NCBI GenBank assembly: GCA_944349765.1
Contig: CALVNN010000013.1
Coordinates: forward strand, 1-32,201
DNA: 32,201 bases
Direction: 5' to 3'
Source: an uncultured Clostridia bacterium
GTDB lineage: Bacteria > Bacillota > Clostridia > Christensenellales > UBA1242
The translations under genes were made by a program, and so were the position numbers. Position 1 is the first letter of the stretch. Every line of letters begins with the position of its first letter. The notes under the pieces are model-generated. The model was given only the letters and a program-made list of their open reading frames with translations, had not been told where the DNA came from and searched no databases. Shown here one piece after another: positions 3,620-12,651 of the stretch.

Positions 3620-4174
3620 GTCCTCATACACATTATATCTCATATAATCTTCCTTGCGTGGCGTCAAATTGAAGTATATATACCCAGCTATAATAATAAG
3701 GATAAGGTCAACTATATTTTCCTGTAAAAATAATATTACGTTACCTATGTATGGTATAGTAAATACAAAGTCACCTATAGTAATGACACGACCAAGAACT
3801 CTTGATGGTACTATGTACTCTTGACTCTCTAAGTATGGGTTGTCACCTTTTGTGATGTAATGCTTTATACTACCATCCTCATTATACTCAATATCTATTA
3901 TTCTGTGTGTATTCACAGCGCCAGCAAATTGAAAGGATATTATATCATCTATTTCGTATACGTCTTTATCGTCCACTACAAAAACTATGCTCTTATAATC
4001 AATAGTTGGTTGCATACTCCATCCGACAACAGTGTATATTTGCACCCCAAGAACCATAGCTAAAAGTAGCGCACCAAGAAGAATGTATACTACCCACGTA
4101 AGGACTATCTTAAAAGCCTGTCCTATTGAGATTTCATCCTCATTAAAATATTTTTGATATTGTATTTTTTCCAT
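3617..4174 (-). CDS. sipW: Signal peptidase I, SipW/ER type (Ser-His)
   Basis: This 185-residue membrane protease removes signal peptides from exported proteins at the outer face of the membrane. It has a long hydrophobic segment at about 21-46, then the catalytic serine in GWSMQPT (Ser53). NTHRI carries His90, where typical bacterial enzymes have a lysine, so this is the SipW/archaeal/ER-type Ser-His class. A KGDNPY box (109-114) holds the conserved Asp111, and a second membrane helix lies near 145-168. The ATG at 4174 is chosen because it follows AAAGGG, whereas an in-frame TTG at 4231 lies inside the probable -35 box. No TasA- or camelysin-like partner is in the window. The divergent neighbour encodes a surface protein. 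Confidence 0.88.
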   Translation of the reverse strand: MEKIQYQKYFNEDEISIGQAFKIVLTWVVYILLGALLLAMVLGVQIYTVVGWSMQPTIDYKSIVFVVDDKDVYEIDDIISFQFAGAVNTHRIIDIEYNEDGSIKHYITKGDNPYLESQEYIVPSRVLGRVITIGDFVFTIPYIGNVILFLQENIVDLILIIIAGYIYFNLTPRKEDYMRYNVYED

Positions 4175-4202
4175 AATAATTACCCTTTTGTTTGTATTTT
4201 TA

Positions 4203-4231
4203 ATCTTATCAAATAATAAAAAATTTTGCAA
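4203..4231 (-). promoter_or_regulatory. Probable promoter for the signal peptidase gene
   Basis: On the minus strand, TTGCAA (4226-4231), a 17-base spacer and TAAGAT (4203-4208). Both boxes match the sigma-A consensus at 4 of 6. It would start transcription about 20 bases before the ribosome binding site, supporting the ATG at 4174. Confidence 0.4.
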
Positions 4232-4278
4232 TTGTTTTTACTACATTATTAGTATTCTCATTTTTTGATTTAAAAGTA

Positions 4279-4307
4279 TTGTTTTTTTTTATTTTTTATA
4301 CTATAAT
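4279..4307 (+). promoter_or_regulatory. Sigma-A-type promoter for the DUF4097-like surface protein
   Basis: TTGTTT (4279-4284), a 17-base spacer, then a perfect TATAAT (4302-4307). Transcription would begin near 4314, giving a leader of about 70 bases before the ATG at 4387. Confidence 0.65.
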
Positions 4308-4386
4308 CAATATATTATAGAACAAAGTGTTCTTAATTGAAGTTGTGAGCAATAGCGATTTATCAAATTATTATAAAGAGGGTAGT

Positions 4387-6072
4387 ATGAGTATTATAAA
4401 AGGGATATTTAAATATGCACTTATTCTAGTATTGATAGCACTTGGTATATGTGTGATTGGACTTGCTGTAATGATATTTACTGGTGCAACCTTATTTGGC
4501 TATAAATATATCAGTTATTCTACCACTAACATTGTTGTGGAAAATGGTGTCAGCCAAGATTATGTTAGTCTAAATCCTGGTGCAAATAATTATTATGGAG
4601 AGTTTGATTCGATTGTTGTTGATGCACCTGATATGAATGTATCAATTTCTAATAATCAATATGATTTTGTGGGCATATCTGCAAGTATTGATGTTAAAGG
4701 CTTTGTTAATGTAGATGATGTTAATGGATTAGTTCTAGAAGAAGAGATTGCACCTCAAATATTTAAAATTTATCAACCTATAGTAAGTGATAATGCTTTA
4801 TACCTTACTATTAGGACCGTAGATGGGTTGTTAAGTTATAATAAGCATAATTTAGATATAACTATCCCAGTACATTTAAAAACTATCAAAGATATTACAG
4901 TAAGCTGTGAAGATGGCGAATTTCATATGTATACAGATGGTAATAGAGTCGTCGAAAACACTGATACGGCGTACGCTTCTGAGTGTACAGGCACTTTGTC
5001 AGTGACTACTACAACAGGTCGACAAATCATTGAAGAGGCTAGTATAAATAATGTTGTTAGTATTTCTGAAAGAGGTGATTTATCTATTGCAAACCTAGTT
5101 AGCACATTTGATTATAATGAAAATGCACTTAATGGAATTACTGGTACATTGACAGTTGAGAATGAATACGGCGATGTTACCCTAGGTGAGAACACTCAAA
5201 TTGGTGGCGGTTGTGTAATAACTAGTGACCATTCTAGAATCAAGCTTAACGATGTGTACAATAGTGGTACTGGTGACAGCTTTATTTATAATGGTTCAGC
5301 TGCGTTTATTGAACTTAATGACATTTATGGTGTTGCTACTATCAACTCAGCTGATGCACAACTTAACTTAAATAGCGTTAAAAAATCCACCACAGATTTT
5401 GCTGAGTTAAGCATAAATCAAGGTAAAAGATTTTCACTAAATATTGAAGAGATAGATGGTACTACAGTCAATGTGGTAACAGAAAGCGGTTCAGTAAATA
5501 TTGGTAAATTAAAAAGTGATATGACAGATATTACTACTAAGAGCGGTAACGTCAATATTGAAGAGCTTTATAGCAGTGTAAAAGTTATCACCGAAAATGG
5601 TAATATAAATATCAATCAAGAAGAGTTATCTAAAGAGATGGCTCCAAGTGTGGTTATTGACATTCAGACAGATAGAGGAAATGTTGTTGTAAATGACATT
5701 CAATCCGCTTTAAATCTAAGAACTACTGGCAATGCTGCTGTCAAATTAAGATATGCACATGTTTATGCTAATAGTAATATCCAAAATGGAGACGGTAACC
5801 TAGAGATTGAGGCTACTTACGAGAAATATGTGTTAGTTACTTCTGGTGCTGGTAGTTTTGATGTTAAGATAGCACAAGTGGAGTATAGTAATCAAAATAC
5901 TGAGACAATTAGCTATGTGTCATTGACAGAAGCTGATGTAGAAGTTATTACCTCAGGCGAGGGAGATAACGTTACAAATACCTATAAAGAGATTGCAACA
6001 GGTGATATACTTAATGTCATCAACGTTACTAGCTTAAGCGGAGCGGTAGATATTTCAAATAGTGTCGCTTAA
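4387..6072 (+). CDS. Membrane-anchored DUF4097-like beta-helix surface protein
   Basis: A 561-residue protein with one N-terminal hydrophobic helix (about residues 8-38) and a long extracellular part. The body is made of short repeated strands such as VTESGSVNIG, TKSGNVNIEE and ITENGNINI, the pattern of the DUF4097/DUF4098 right-handed beta-helix (putative adhesin) family. It has no cysteine-rich, sorting or enzymatic motif. ATG 4387 is preferred because GAGG lies 5 bases before it. An in-frame GTG at 4327 would sit almost at the predicted transcript start and lacks a binding site. It is transcribed divergently from the SipW-type peptidase, alone, between its own promoter and terminator. The exact role (adhesion, envelope stress) cannot be told from sequence. 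Confidence 0.75.
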   Translation: MSIIKGIFKYALILVLIALGICVIGLAVMIFTGATLFGYKYISYSTTNIVVENGVSQDYVSLNPGANNYYGEFDSIVVDAPDMNVSISNNQYDFVGISASIDVKGFVNVDDVNGLVLEEEIAPQIFKIYQPIVSDNALYLTIRTVDGLLSYNKHNLDITIPVHLKTIKDITVSCEDGEFHMYTDGNRVVENTDTAYASECTGTLSVTTTTGRQIIEEASINNVVSISERGDLSIANLVSTFDYNENALNGITGTLTVENEYGDVTLGENTQIGGGCVITSDHSRIKLNDVYNSGTGDSFIYNGSAAFIELNDIYGVATINSADAQLNLNSVKKSTTDFAELSINQGKRFSLNIEEIDGTTVNVVTESGSVNIGKLKSDMTDITTKSGNVNIEELYSSVKVITENGNININQEELSKEMAPSVVIDIQTDRGNVVVNDIQSALNLRTTGNAAVKLRYAHVYANSNIQNGDGNLEIEATYEKYVLVTSGAGSFDVKIAQVEYSNQNTETISYVSLTEADVEVITSGEGDNVTNTYKEIATGDILNVINVTSLSGAVDISNSVA

Positions 6073-6090
6073 AGCTTATAATTATATAAA

Positions 6091-6133
6091 TAAAAATCCA
6101 CGATAGTTGATTACGACTATTTCGTGGTTTTTT
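6091..6133 (+). terminator. Rho-independent terminator
   Basis: CCACGATAGT (6098-6107) pairs with ACTAT (6116-6120) and CGTGG (6123-6127), leaving a two-base bulge, and is followed by T6. It lies 25 bases after the stop of the surface protein gene. Confidence 0.75.
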
Positions 6134-6151
6134 GTTTTTTGAGTAGTGTGT

Positions 6152-6180
6152 TTGACTTTTTTTGCGTTTTAGTGTATATT
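6152..6180 (+). promoter_or_regulatory. Strong sigma-A-type promoter
   Basis: TTGACT (6152-6157), 17 bases, TATATT (6175-6180). The same two hexamers and spacing recur in front of the tRNA operon. It drives the C-type-lectin-like protein gene. Confidence 0.7.
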
Positions 6181-6213
6181 ATTTTTTGAAGAAAATGTAG
6201 GAGTTTTTTGTAT

Positions 6214-7383
6214 ATGAGTGACAACAAGGTGTATGGTGTGATTACTGAGGAAAATCTTAATGGCAAACTACAAAGGATAGGTGATAATACAGTTAGTTTA
6301 GAGCCGACTATAAATGAAGACGGTACTATAGATAGTCCTTTTGATAAGATATATCCGTGGAGCGAGATGATAGAAGTAGATGACGAGGGTAATCCCATTG
6401 ATATGAGCGGGGCTAGTGAATATAAGGGGAATTTTTTTATAAAAGTACCTAAATTTTATACCTCTTATACTTATTCAAAAAGGGACGACCAAACATATGT
6501 GACGGGCGTGAAGATTTGTGCAAATAAGTTGGATAATAGCTATATACTAAATCCCGCTTTTATAGACGAAGATGGTAATGAATTGGATTATTTTTTGGTA
6601 GGTAAGTACAAAGCTGGTGACAGTGGATCTTTGCGTTCTATTTTAAAAGAGAGTATAAAAAAAGATGGTGAAGAACAAGTCGTAGAGGTAAAGCCCGTTG
6701 TTAATATTACTCTAGAGAATAGTCGAAAGCGTGCTATTAAGAATAATACAGATGAGTTGAAAGGTTATCAACTTATGGATATTTGGATGTGGAAGGCTTT
6801 GCAAGATTTATTTATTGTGGAATTTGCCACTTTAGATACTCAAAGTGTAATGAAAGGCAATTGCTATAGTATGAGTATCACAAAATGCGGTGTTACTAAT
6901 CAAATAAGTTCAAAAAGTGGATTTTTAGTAGAAAGTCCTTATTCTATGAAGTATAGGGGTATTGAGGATTTGTATGGCAATGTTTTTGAATGGTTAGACG
7001 GAGTAGTATTAAGCGAGTACAATATTTATGTTTGTGACAAACCAAGTCTATATTCAAATAAATTAAATGACTCTGGAGTAATAGAAAACTACACTAAAAT
7101 AAATTATTTAGCGTGTCAAGGTGAAAACAATATTTTAAAACTCGGTTACGATGCAAATAATCCTTTCGTTCAATTTCCTATTGAATGTAGCGATGAATTT
7201 TCTTTTGATAAAGGCTACTATGATGCTTACACAGTGAATAGGTCTGCCGGTCGCTCAGTGGCTGTAGGCGGGCATAATTGGAGCGAAGCTTTGGCTGGCT
7301 TATTTGGTATGAATTGTAATTTTGGAAGTCTAGCAGGTGTTACATACATAGGATGTCGACTGGCTAAACGTCCAATAAAATAA
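6214..7383 (+). CDS. C-type-lectin/FGE-fold protein resembling DGR variable proteins
   Basis: A 389-residue protein without a signal peptide. The C-terminal half (about 186-389) has the landmarks of diversity-generating retroelement targets with a C-type-lectin/formylglycine-enzyme fold. These are MWKALQDLFIVEFATLDTQ (193-211), YRGIEDLYGNVFEWLDG (247-263), and a C-terminal VGGHNWSEALAGLFG stretch ending IGCRLAKRP (351-387). In this family the last 40 or so residues are the variable ligand-binding surface, here encoded at about 7252-7380. The N-terminal half is acidic and has no family I recognise. ATG 6214 is favoured over an in-frame TTG at 6208, which leaves too short a gap to TAGGAG. No reverse transcriptase, accessory gene or template repeat is in the window. 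A cellular binding protein or prophage remnant fits equally; the natural ligand is unknown. Confidence 0.7.
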   Translation: MSDNKVYGVITEENLNGKLQRIGDNTVSLEPTINEDGTIDSPFDKIYPWSEMIEVDDEGNPIDMSGASEYKGNFFIKVPKFYTSYTYSKRDDQTYVTGVKICANKLDNSYILNPAFIDEDGNELDYFLVGKYKAGDSGSLRSILKESIKKDGEEQVVEVKPVVNITLENSRKRAIKNNTDELKGYQLMDIWMWKALQDLFIVEFATLDTQSVMKGNCYSMSITKCGVTNQISSKSGFLVESPYSMKYRGIEDLYGNVFEWLDGVVLSEYNIYVCDKPSLYSNKLNDSGVIENYTKINYLACQGENNILKLGYDANNPFVQFPIECSDEFSFDKGYYDAYTVNRSAGRSVAVGGHNWSEALAGLFGMNCNFGSLAGVTYIGCRLAKRPIK

Positions 7384-7397
7384 AGGTATGAAATATG

Positions 7398-7430
7398 ATA
7401 AAATAGTTTTTTTTAAAAAGTATTTTATTT
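7398..7430 (+). terminator. AT-only hairpin, possible terminator
   Basis: ATAAAATA (7398-7405) and T5 pair with A5 and TATTTTAT (7421-7428) with one internal mismatch and a 3-base loop. It lies 14 bases past the stop. The stem has no G-C pairs, so its strength is doubtful. Confidence 0.4.
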
Positions 7431-7494
7431 TGATAGAATTTGTGATATTCTAAAGATATAAAAACCTTAAATTTAGGGTTAATAAAGGAGTATT

Positions 7495-9444
7495 ATGGCT
7501 AAGACAAATTATGATGCAAAAGATATAGTTGTGCTTGAGGGACTAGATGCTGTTAGACTGCGTCCAGGTATGTATATTGGAACTACTGGAATCAAGGGAT
7601 TGCATCACTTACTGTGGGAAATAGTAGACAATGCAATGGACGAGGTAAGTAATGGATATGGAGACAATATCATAGTTACTTTGCACACAGATGGAAGTGC
7701 CTCTGTCAAGGATAACGGAAGAGGTATACCTGTTGATCCACATCCAACACTTAAAATATCCGGTGTTGAAGTGGTATTCACACAACTACATGCAGGCGGT
7801 AAATTTAATAATGATAATTACAATTTCTCAGGTGGTTTGCACGGTGTAGGTGCGTCCGTAACTAACGCTCTAAGTAAATGGACAAAGGTCTGGGTAGAGC
7901 GTGACGGCCAGACCTATTTTATGGAGTTTGAGAGCATAAAAGGTGAAGATGGCAAGGTAAAAAGTGGCGTGGTGAAAGAACATCTAAAGCCTATAGGTAA
8001 GACTGAGGGTAGTGGCACTTTGGTTAGATTTTTGCCAGATGCGGATGTATTTAAAGACGCTACATTTAGTAAAGAAATTGTTTCAAAACGACTTAAAGAA
8101 TTAGCTTTTTTAAATAAAGGCGTCAAAATAGAGCTGATTGACGAGCGAGACAATGATAGAGCAGTTTATCATTATGAGGGCGGTTTAGTCGATTTTGTTA
8201 AATACATCAACGAAGACAAGACGACTATAATATCTCCGTGTATTTATATAGAGGGTTCTTCAAAAATAGTGAAATTAGAGTTAGCCATAAGCTATACTGA
8301 CGGATATAATGAGAACGTATTCTCATATGTGAATAATATCCCTACAACCGAGGGCGGTACACACGAGACTGGACTTAAGAGTGCAATAACAAAAGTCTTT
8401 AATGATTATGCAAGAAAAAACAACCTACTCAAAGAAAAAGAAGTAAATCTTATGGGTGAAGATTTTAGAGAGGGTATAACGCTTGCACTTAGCATAAAGA
8501 TGCAAAATGTCCAATTTGAAGGACAGACCAAGACAAAACTTGGCAACCCTGAGGCTAAGCAAGAAGTAGAAAATATAGTAACGGCAGAGCTTAGCAAGCT
8601 GATAGAACGTAAAGAATATGCTTCAAGTATGGAAACTATTATAAATAAAGCCAAGTCAGCAGCAAAAGCTAGAGAGGCAGCACGTAAAGCTAAGGAGCTA
8701 ACCAGAGCAAAAAATAGCATAGATAGTACAAATCTTGTAGGTAAATTGAGTGCTTGCACAGGGCGTAAAGCCGAACTAAATGAGCTATTTATTGTTGAGG
8801 GCGATAGTGCGGGTGGAAGTGCTAAGCAAGGTCGAGATAGACAATTTCAGGCTATATTACCACTTAAGGGTAAGCCATTAAATGCCGAAAAGAAAAGATT
8901 AGAACAAGTACTTCAAAATGACGAAATTCGCAGTCTAATAAGTGCTTTAGGTGCTGGGATAGGAGATGACTTTGATACAAAAAATTTAAAGTATCATAAG
9001 GTAATTATCTTGTCCGATGCTGACCAAGACGGTGCACATATTAGGGCGATACTACTGACATTTTTCTTTAGGTATATGAGGGATTTGATAACTGGCGGGT
9101 ATGTGTATATGGGAATGCCACCTTTATACAAGGTATACCGTGGGAATAACTTTGAGTATGTGTATTCGGATAAAGAATTGCCAGAAGCTATAGAGCGAAT
9201 TGGCAAAGGGTATAGCATCCAAAGATACAAAGGTCTAGGCGAGATGAATCCAGAACAGCTTTGGGACACTACGCTAAATCCTGCGACAAGGAGTTTGGTG
9301 CGAGTAGAGCTTTCAGATGCAGCAGAGGCTGAGAGGCTTATAAGCATACTTATGGGTGATAATATTGATGCCAGAAAGGAATATATAGCAAACAACGCAA
9401 ATTTCAATAAGAAAACTATATATGATACATATAATTCGAAATAA
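7495..9444 (+). CDS. parE: Type II DNA topoisomerase subunit B (ParE-like)
   Basis: This is the 649-residue ATPase subunit that powers strand passage by the A2B2 enzyme. The GHKL ATPase motifs are VDNAMDE (44-50), DNGRGIP (73-79) and GGLHGVGASV (113-122). The TOPRIM metal site follows as EGDSAGGSA (435-443) and DADQDGAH (508-515). The length suits a Gram-positive GyrB or ParE without the proteobacterial insert. ParE is preferred over GyrB because the partner lacks a GyrA box. The family resemblance (GRDRQFQAILPLKGK, RYKGLGEMN) does not by itself decide. ATG 7495 follows AAAGGAG. The subunit A gene starts 13 bases after the stop, so the two are co-transcribed. Confidence 0.85.
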   Translation: MAKTNYDAKDIVVLEGLDAVRLRPGMYIGTTGIKGLHHLLWEIVDNAMDEVSNGYGDNIIVTLHTDGSASVKDNGRGIPVDPHPTLKISGVEVVFTQLHAGGKFNNDNYNFSGGLHGVGASVTNALSKWTKVWVERDGQTYFMEFESIKGEDGKVKSGVVKEHLKPIGKTEGSGTLVRFLPDADVFKDATFSKEIVSKRLKELAFLNKGVKIELIDERDNDRAVYHYEGGLVDFVKYINEDKTTIISPCIYIEGSSKIVKLELAISYTDGYNENVFSYVNNIPTTEGGTHETGLKSAITKVFNDYARKNNLLKEKEVNLMGEDFREGITLALSIKMQNVQFEGQTKTKLGNPEAKQEVENIVTAELSKLIERKEYASSMETIINKAKSAAKAREAARKAKELTRAKNSIDSTNLVGKLSACTGRKAELNELFIVEGDSAGGSAKQGRDRQFQAILPLKGKPLNAEKKRLEQVLQNDEIRSLISALGAGIGDDFDTKNLKYHKVIILSDADQDGAHIRAILLTFFFRYMRDLITGGYVYMGMPPLYKVYRGNNFEYVYSDKELPEAIERIGKGYSIQRYKGLGEMNPEQLWDTTLNPATRSLVRVELSDAAEAERLISILMGDNIDARKEYIANNANFNKKTIYDTYNSK

Positions 9445-9457
9445 AAAGGATTAAAAG

Positions 9458-11929
9458 ATGAAAAAATCAAGAAGTGAACAAATGTCGATGTTGGGTCCAG
9501 ATGGTGAAGCATTAGATGTGAATAAGATAATTACAAAAAGCATAGATGAGATAATGCACGAATCAATGATGCCTTATTCTGAATGCGTTATACTAGATAG
9601 AGCTTTGCCAAGGGTGGAAGATGGACTAAAGCCAGTACAGAGGCGTATATTATATACTATGCTAGAGCTAGGATTATCTCCTGACAAACCTTTTAGAAAA
9701 AGTGCACGTATAGTAGGCGATTGTTTGGGTAAATATCACCCACATGGAGATACTAGCGTCTATGATGCTATGGTTCGTATGGCACAAACCTTTAATATGC
9801 GTGAACCTCTTGTAACGGGACATGGTAATTTTGGATCGGTGGACGGCGATAGTGCAGCTGCTATGCGTTATACCGAGGCTAAGATGTCGCCACTTGCACT
9901 GGAAATGTTAAAAGACTTAGAGAAGAATACCGTTTCGTGGAGTTTTAACTTTGATGACTCATTAAAAGAACCAGATATGTTGCCTGCTGGGTTTCCAAAT
10001 CTACTGGTGAATGGTTCGACGGGTATTGCTGTTGGACTTGCTACCAACATTCCGACTCATAACCTTGCAGAAGTCATTGACGGTGCTGTCGCTATGATAG
10101 ATAAGCCAAAAATTACTCTTGATGAAATGATGAAATACATTCCAGCACCAGACTTCCCAACGGGCGGGTATGTAATAGTTGGCGATGAACTCAAACAAGC
10201 TTATGCGACAGGTAAGGGTAAAGTCATAATGCGTGCAAAGATAAATATTGAAACCAATGACGATAGAAAAAGCATTATCATTACCGAATTACCTTTTCAA
10301 GTAAATAAAGCTTTACTTCTTCAAAAGATTGCAGAGCTCAAAGAGGATAAGGGTAAGACGGCGTTAGCTGGTATTCAAGAGATACGTGATGAGTCTGACA
10401 GAAAAGGTATGCGTGCTGTCATAAAACTCAAAAAAGATGTAGCACCAGAGCCTATTATTAATTATCTATTAAAATACAGCAATCTTCAGACACAGTTTAA
10501 TATCAATATGGTGGCTATTGCTGAGGGTAAGCCACAACAATTAGGGTTGTTGGATTTAGTAAGACATTATATCAATTTTAGACAAAAAGTCATTGTAAAT
10601 AGGACTAAGTTTGACCTAGAAGTAGCAAAAGAAAGGGCTCATATATTAGAAGGGCTACTAATTGCCATCAAAAATATTGATGCTGTAGTTAAAATAATCA
10701 AAACTTCTTCTTCGACTACAGAGGCAAAACAAAGGCTAAGAGAAAAGTTTTTACTAAGCGAAAAACAAGCTCAAGCGATACTAGATATGAGGCTTAGTAA
10801 GCTTACTAATCTTGAAGTCAATAAGCTAGAAAAAGAACTAGCCGACCTTAAAGTCAAGATAGCCGAACTTACAGCAATACTCAATAGTACAAAACTTCAA
10901 CTCAAAGTAGTCAAAGATGAACTTCTTGCAGTGAAACGACAATTCAAAAATGAGCGTAAGAGCAAGATATTGAACAAAGATAAGGTTGAGATACCATCTG
11001 ATGAGGATTTAAAGGTAGCAAGAGATGTCGTAGTCGGTATCACAGCTATGAATACTATTAAGGCTATTCCAGTCAAAAATTTCTCAATGTCTCAAAAGGA
11101 ATTTGGTACAAATAGTACACTGTATGAAGCTCATAGTCAGTTTGTGAAATGTACTACAGAACAGAGTATATTTGTGTTTACTAATTTGGGTAATTGTTAC
11201 AAGGTGAACGTAGGCGATATAGATGAGGCTAAGTTTAAAGACAAAGGTACACCGTTAAAGAATTTATTAGAATGCAGTACGGATGAGGTGGCGGTGTATA
11301 TTATGCTTGTGCCTAAGTCATACAAAGATAGGTGCTTATATATCTTCACTGAGGAAGGTATGGTTAAGAAATCAAAACTTGCCGAGTATAATGTATCCAA
11401 GAGCCTAATACAAGCTATCAAACTAAAAGAGGGCGATAAGGTGATAGGCGTATGCGAAGAGGGTGTAGATGATGACCGAATGGTATTAGTGACAAAAGGC
11501 GGTATGGTATCTATATGTGAGATAAGTGACATACCGGATACTGGTAGAGTCACTAATGGTGTCAAGGCTATCAAGCTTAACGATGGTGATAAGGTTATTT
11601 TAGGTCAATTAAGTGACGGAAGTGGTGAGATAGTGACTATCACTAGCAAAGCCAACGCAAAACGTACTATTATTGCTGAATACGATGTCACTCCAAGATA
11701 CAGGAAAGGATTAAAATTAATTAGTTTTGGCAAAGACGGTGAGTATTTGCAGTTTGCTAGCATAGTTACTTGGCCTTATACTATAGTTGTTGAAGATATA
11801 AACGGCATTACAATATCTAAATACACAGAAGACATTGCTATAGCAAATCACGGTACTAGCGGTAAAAATATGGTACGAAGTAAAAATGGTTTAGTAGTAT
11901 CAAGAGTAGCTATATTTAAGGAAAATTAA
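9458..11929 (+). CDS. parC: Type II DNA topoisomerase subunit A (ParC-like)
   Basis: An 823-residue DNA cleavage/religation subunit. The catalytic tyrosine is Tyr138 in [10 protein letters not shown]. The quinolone-resistance region reads [15 protein letters not shown], with Thr99 and Asp103 at the positions of E. coli GyrA Ser83 and Asp87. Helical coiled-coil residues (about 370-500) form the gate, followed by a C-terminal beta-pinwheel (about 520-820). I find no GyrA box (QRRGGKG-like) in the pinwheel; the nearest stretch is RYRKGLKLI. This points to a topoisomerase IV-type decatenase rather than a supercoiling gyrase. The ATG follows AAGGA and forms a unit with the upstream subunit B gene. 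It ends at a terminator shared with the convergent sigK. Confidence 0.85.
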
Positions 11930-11934
11930 TTTTC

Positions 11935-11960
11935 AAAAACGCCTTATTTGGCGTTTTTTT
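11935..11960. terminator. Bidirectional terminator between parC and sigK
   Basis: AAAAACGCC (11935-11943) pairs perfectly with GGCGTTTTT (11950-11958) across a 6-base loop, followed by more T. It occupies the whole gap between the two convergent genes. Confidence 0.9.
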
Positions 11961-12651
11961 ATAAAAAGTCTTTGGTGTGTTTTCGGATTTCGTCTATGGC
12001 TTTGGTCTCAAGTCTACTTATATAACTTCTAGATATACCTAGTTCTTTTGCTACTTCTCGCTGGGTCTTGGGGTGCGTGCCTTCTAGTCCATAACGCATT
12101 TTTAGAATGGTGTATTCACGCTCATTCAAGACTTGTTTGATTAGACTAAGAAGCTTCTTATTCATTATTTTATTTTCGACGCTCTCTATGGATTGCCCTT
12201 CATATGCTGGGATAATATCCATAAGGCAAATATCATTGCCGTCTTTATCAGTGCCTAAGCTTTCGTTGAGACTTATGGCTTGATTGTGTTTTTTGTTGAC
12301 CCTAATAAGCATAAGAATTTCATTTTCTATGCATCTTGCGGCGTATGTAGAAAGCTGGGTGTTTTTGTCGGCATTAAAGGTATTTATAGCTTTTATAAGA
12401 CCAATAGAACCAGCTGATATCAGGTCTTCTGCTTCGCCGGCACCTGAGTATTTTTTGACAATATGTGCGACAAGACGTAAATTGTGATTTATAAGAATCT
12501 CTTTTGCGTTGTTGTCGCCATTTTTGTAGCGAATAAGCATTTGTTTTTCCTCTTCTGGAGTAAGGGGCTTGGGAAAACATGATACACGATTGATATACCC
12601 AGAAAATAACATAATTTTGTTCATAAAGGTCACAAAGTTTTCAAAAATCAT
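11959..12651 (-). CDS. sigK: RNA polymerase sigma-K factor (late mother-cell sporulation)
   Basis: A 230-residue sigma-70 family factor. A short hydrophobic, pro-like N-terminus (about 8-26) precedes FPKPLTPEEE. Region 2 contains NLRLVAHIVKKY (57-68), DLIS (76-79) and TYAARCIENEIL (102-113). Region 4 ends with the helix-turn-helix KELGISRSYISRLE. The LRLVAH and KDGNDICLMD wording fits SigK better than SigE. In the known pathway SigK directs late mother-cell genes (coat, cortex, lysis) and is made as a pro-protein cleaved at the forespore membrane. The gene is continuous, without a skin-type element. ATG 12651 follows AAGGAG at 7 bases. No SpoIVF or other sporulation gene is nearby. Confidence 0.85.
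   Translation of the reverse strand: MIFENFVTFMNKIMLFSGYINRVSCFPKPLTPEEEKQMLIRYKNGDNNAKEILINHNLRLVAHIVKKYSGAGEAEDLISAGSIGLIKAINTFNADKNTQLSTYAARCIENEILMLIRVNKKHNQAISLNESLGTDKDGNDICLMDIIPAYEGQSIESVENKIMNKKLLSLIKQVLNEREYTILKMRYGLEGTHPKTQREVAKELGISRSYISRLETKAIDEIRKHTKDFL

Follow-up and report, generated by a model that had tools for sequence, protein, structure and literature searches.

A variable protein gene of the diversity-generating retroelement type standing alone upstream of parE in an uncultured Clostridia bacterium

The stretch of DNA analysed here, referred to as the window, comprises 32,201 nucleotides from an uncultured Clostridia bacterium. At 6214–7383 it contains a gene that the initial annotation had described as encoding an orphan variable protein of the type targeted by diversity-generating retroelements (DGRs). 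The locus has the following features.

6152–6180, + strand: sigma-70-like promoter, TTGACT-17-TATATT, matching the consensus at 10 of 12 positions; likely the gene's own promoter
6199–6203, + strand: AGGAG resembling a Shine-Dalgarno sequence, 10 nt ahead of the ATG, assigned from sequence
6214–7383, + strand: gene for an orphan variable protein of the DGR type; 389 aa, predicted C-type lectin (CLec) fold of the FGE subtype, no signal peptide evident by eye
7258–7362, + strand: counterpart of the variable region (VR) seen in DGR-linked relatives, from alignment to their VR and template repeat (TR) and a codon test
7384–7494, + strand: 111-nt gap before parE, without the hairpin, template repeat and reverse transcriptase (RT), all three of which relatives have downstream
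7495–9444, + strand: parE (topoisomerase IV subunit B-like)
9458–11929, + strand: parC (topoisomerase IV subunit A-like)

The open reading frame is intact, with an ATG at 6214 and a stop codon at 7381–7383, and all of the landmark segments quoted earlier for the C-terminal half, namely ALQDLFIVEFATLDTQ, YRGIEDLYGNVFEW and the terminal VGGHNW...AGLFG...IGCRLAKRP, are found in its product. The promoter-like site is a consensus match only, and the regional total of such sites is near the shuffle expectation. GC content is host-like, and so is codon usage, which thus offers no sign of recent transfer. Since the frame, the promoter-like site, the Shine-Dalgarno sequence and 45 of the 54 near-invariant residues of the family are retained, the gene is not a decayed pseudogene. 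A search of the same genome found no variable-protein paralogue.

The parE-parC order is common to relatives of the organism wherever it could be checked. None of those checked carries a comparable gene upstream of parE, with about 1.5 kb of flank covered for most, and the same holds for the closest relative by ParE (G016, 77% identical). The G016 genome contains a DGR of its own that serves a different variable protein (L188, G016:C8:71000-88000; repeats at 6532–6648 and 7132–7248), in which 19 of 19 differences are at template adenines. The neighbouring genes in the window are of housekeeping or surface types, and no phage structural genes were seen among the window genes scanned. One of them, at 91–1413, encodes a 440-aa protein with a C-terminal DUF6273 (residues 277–436) and N-terminal matches to phrog_10993 (Hoc-like phage head decoration); it could be another lectin-like surface protein.

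The structure of the 389-aa protein was predicted with AlphaFold2 from an input alignment of 38 sequences (pLDDT 83, pTM 0.89). The best PDB matches of this model in Foldseek were TaqVP of Thermus aquaticus (2.3e-10) and Mtd of a Bordetella phage, each a DGR variable protein. In VIA-align, TaqVP scored Z 25.7 over 259 residues at 2.9 Å, and the next rows, PvdO, Treponema TvpA (2y3c) and FGE, scored near Z 12, with 12.3 as the second-best value overall. TaqVP (PDB 5VF4) is of similar length (381 aa), consists likewise of a single CLec domain of the FGE subtype with its VR at the extreme C-terminus, and is 20% identical over the 259 residues. It adjoins avd, TR and RT in a T. aquaticus prophage (PMC6328139), whereas none of these lies beside the window gene. 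The C-terminal CLec domain of Mtd from phage BPP-1 (1YU0-1YU4), whose receptor-binding role serves as the model for phage DGR targets, also matches the window protein, with Z of about 11. As judged from the predicted model, the protein is a DGR variable protein with a CLec fold of the FGE subtype and a C-terminal variable segment.

A Pfam search with the protein gave no match, but in PHROGs it matched phrog_5302 (tail protein) over residues 2–387 (E=8.5e-40). A tblastn search of phage records identified relatives, including those of Lactobacillus phage LBR48 and Psychrobacillus phage Perkons, in which an annotated reverse transcriptase is next downstream. When the last 137 bp of the Perkons gene were compared with their downstream copy, 32 of 32 differences fell at adenines of the copy, which is the template. 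G050 and G128, two genomes from the family of the window's bacterium, hold DGRs of the prophage type; template adenines account for 15 of 16 differences in the first and 25 of 26 in the second. When viral and genome contigs were surveyed more widely with a three-row profile, 44 distinct relatives, among those fetched, proved to have a template repeat next to the gene. As a rule, the RT lies directly downstream in most of these relatives, the template mostly lies 165–291 nt after the VR, VR/TR mismatches are almost exclusively at template adenines, and the templates translate to VGGNWNNGANAGLWNWNGNNSASNANSNIGGR or near variants. These tail proteins, as in Perkons, LBR48 and the Clostridia prophages, are homologous to the window protein over its full length at about 24–40% identity, but their genes stand directly upstream of TR and RT, whereas the window gene is followed by parE. 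The fold match to TaqVP and the 44 template-bearing relatives with their template-adenine mismatches make membership of the window protein in this DGR variable-protein family solid, and together with the phrog_5302 and Mtd matches they bear out the earlier designation. The survey indicates that proteins of the phrog_5302 type serve widely as DGR targets among the phages and prophages of Firmicutes.

A possible VR in the window gene had been proposed at 7252–7380. A VR-equivalent does exist, but it is slightly narrower, at about 7258–7362, because the VGGHNWSEALAGLFGMNCNFGSLAGVTYIGCRL of the window falls on the template segment of the relatives. Two fixed tryptophans are present in the binding site of TaqVP, whereas the two near-invariant VR tryptophans of the family are both replaced in the window protein, by N355 and M366. 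Of the 54 near-invariant columns, 9 are changed here versus 0–5 in other rows, a comparison that is somewhat biased in that the other rows were retrieved by searches for conserved patterns and are more similar among themselves. At the columns where templates have AAY, a pyrimidine third base (NNY) is found in 7 of only 10 columns in the window versus 8–10 of 10 in DGR-linked relatives; four of the latter score 8, close to the window value, and the NNY fraction in the rest of the window gene is 0.57. This codon test is weak alone, though it points in the same direction as the erosion of the VR.

The 3′ target site was also compared. A GC-rich hairpin of the type AAGGGGGAAACTTCCCCCTT, defined as a stem of 6 bp or more that contains 4 or more GC and lies shortly past the stop codon, is present in 41 of the 44 DGR-linked relatives and is rare in shuffled sequences; by the same criteria, three of the relatives are without it. 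No such hairpin was found within 200 nt of the stop codon in the window. The IMH, likewise expected just 3′ of a VR, was looked for by eye and not seen either. Efficient retrohoming in BPP-1 depends on such a hairpin directly behind the VR, and stem mutants have residual activity (PMC3240598).

It had been noted that nothing resembling an RT or a template repeat lies in the window, and indeed neither was found downstream of the gene, nor any template-like repeat within 4000–12000 of the window. A cassette in cis is absent because the gene abuts parE. We also searched the rest of the genome, an assembly of 977 kb in 30 contigs that is 93.13% complete, as the initial annotation had proposed with a near-copy of the 3′ end beside an RT in mind; neither turned up. 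No RT was found with PF00078, and a profile of four DGR RTs gave 0 matches. In the same run this profile matched 52 of 297 genomes of the family, not all of these matches being DGR RTs, and was strongest for G128 and G050, which had supplied rows to it, and for G114, an independent control. By blastn, the 3′ end of the gene matched only itself besides matches of chance length. A search with an adenine-masked pattern, in which A was allowed at every position as a true template must fit, recovered with up to 3 mismatches only the VR itself, the positive control.

These results bear on the possibility that the VR is still diversified in trans, with RT and template supplied by a coinfecting phage, a plasmid or genome sequence missing from the assembly. 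DGRs recur in this small-genome bacterial family, as the profile matches show; several of its genomes, including G016, hold adenine-only VR/TR pairs, remote targets exist in Treponema denticola (PMC4891356), and in G149 a VR lies 4.9 kb from its TR. Against this stand the failure to find RT and TR in 93% of the genome, the absence of the 3′ hairpin, the loss of the fixed tryptophans and the weaker codon signature (7/10 in the small test). Active diversification served from elsewhere is therefore not supported. An unassembled prophage or plasmid could hold both RT and TR, and because the missing 7% leaves a small chance of this, we keep such diversification as a highly improbable alternative. 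Of the two options originally offered, a remote RT or a frozen relic, we favor the latter because neither RT nor template turned up in the 93% complete genome, the hairpin is absent and the VR appears to have drifted away from what a template would give.

The phylogeny of the relatives raises the question of whether the gene was ever a DGR target, as it would not have been if it stems from a lineage of phage tail proteins that share the fold but have no DGR. Some phage relatives (L084, L085, L016 and L011) are indeed without RT or TR nearby, and the window row has no supported sister in the tree. However, DGR-linked members dominate, the DGR-free rows do not cluster in the tree but recur across it (10 label changes), and the window protein has kept the terminal VGG...AGLF...GCRL layout of a VR. 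We regard such a descent as improbable. A single-protein search of IMG/VR and GTDB contigs found no close relatives of the window protein, and its terminal branch is long (2.43 versus a median of 0.37).

The long branch would fit a decaying prophage relic, with the gene as the last one of a deleted prophage and heading for loss. The phage-type relatives, the lineage-specific position and the lack of matches in the genome to the two other phage markers searched, portal (PF04860) and Baseplate_J, are consistent with such decay. On the other hand, the frame is open at full length, the gene has a promoter-like site of its own and its scaffold is conserved, and neither phage remnants nor att-like direct repeats of note were found beside the gene. 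The long branch could also reflect a divergent phage lineage instead of drift after capture. Decay of this kind is possible, although we do not consider it the leading account.

Alternatively, the protein may have been domesticated by the host, as a CLec protein kept for fixed binding or an FGE-like function and selected independently of phage. The intact frame with its expression signals and host-like codon usage, the retained near-invariant residues, the enzymes FGE and PvdO among the fold relatives and a second chromosomal orphan amid housekeeping genes in G114 all argue in this direction. Yet members of the variable protein family occur in only 4 of 297 genomes of the bacterial family, two of the four in prophage DGRs, so that this is not a conserved host gene, and the protein has no evident signal peptide. 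Domestication in this sense is a rather unlikely explanation. Both it and prophage decay are compatible with the explanation that we prefer, and their likelihoods overlap with its own because both are ways of becoming uncoupled from a DGR.

We consider it probable that the gene encodes a phage receptor-binding variable protein that now stands alone upstream of parE, uncoupled from its DGR and with its binding surface frozen. A gene for a receptor-binding variable protein of the tail-tip type would have belonged to a phage or prophage DGR and would then have been captured by the chromosome or have survived alone in it. Because RT, template repeat and 3′ hairpin are absent, mutagenic homing is most likely no longer possible, which would leave the binding surface fixed. 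The intact frame may mean that the protein is still used, as a lectin-like binder that no longer varies, or that its capture was recent. We infer the phage origin from the relatives, with no phage genes found next to the gene, and likewise a past loss of the DGR as opposed to its never having been there. More speculatively, the host might have taken this DGR-born protein into its own service as an unvarying cellular binder with independent expression, one solution of hypermutation having been frozen; it could, for example, be a decoy that disturbs the adsorption of phages or the assembly of their tails. We think this doubtful.

DGR targets without their machinery are known in kind, and the window gene would be a further case. 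In T. denticola isolates, target genes without RT and TR were interpreted as leftovers (PMC4891356), the target gene outlasting the core DGR as is proposed here. In that species the loss can be seen directly by comparison with close strains that have complete DGRs, whereas the window gene has no close relative for comparison. A large DGR survey sought targets beside the RT and states that remote ones would be missed (PMC8144416). The window gene illustrates clearly how a DGR target can outlive or escape the machinery that diversified it, here at a chromosomal site next to essential genes. Should strains or phages carrying the complete cassette exist, a hypermutated binding site could be compared before and after mutation stops.

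Other orphans and unusual arrangements were observed among the contigs surveyed. The orphan in G114 (L019, G114:C61, 10847–12220) encodes a 457-aa protein with a hydrophobic N-terminal stretch, lies between tRNA synthetase and Mur ligase genes and has kept a GC-rich hairpin after its stop codon. Contig C35 of G114 holds a DGR RT and a template that resembles the VR of this orphan at the protein level; it was rejected as the current template, as the two differ at many synonymous and non-adenine sites. Elsewhere in G114, short matches to the orphan of 21 nt look like T-rich chance matches. Another orphan relative (L139, CAMEYT010000001.1, 5935–7038) has no RT or TR in 13 kb but possesses the 3′ hairpin and all near-invariant residues; it may have lost them recently or be served from a distance. 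A contig labelled Alistipes (L142, JAFVVS010000091.1) carries a Clostridia-type phage DGR of the phrog_5302-type family, and its label is likely due to misbinning. The DGR of G149 (L056, G149:C26, reverse strand) lies by what appear by eye to be tyrosine-recombinase-like fragments and has an 831-aa target with an apparent signal sequence; its remote VR is downstream of the RT, with 16 of 16 differences at template adenines. Finally, L055 (G147:C23:57000-76000, reverse strand) contains two VR/TR pairs, in which 14 of 14 and 10 of 10 differences are at template adenines.
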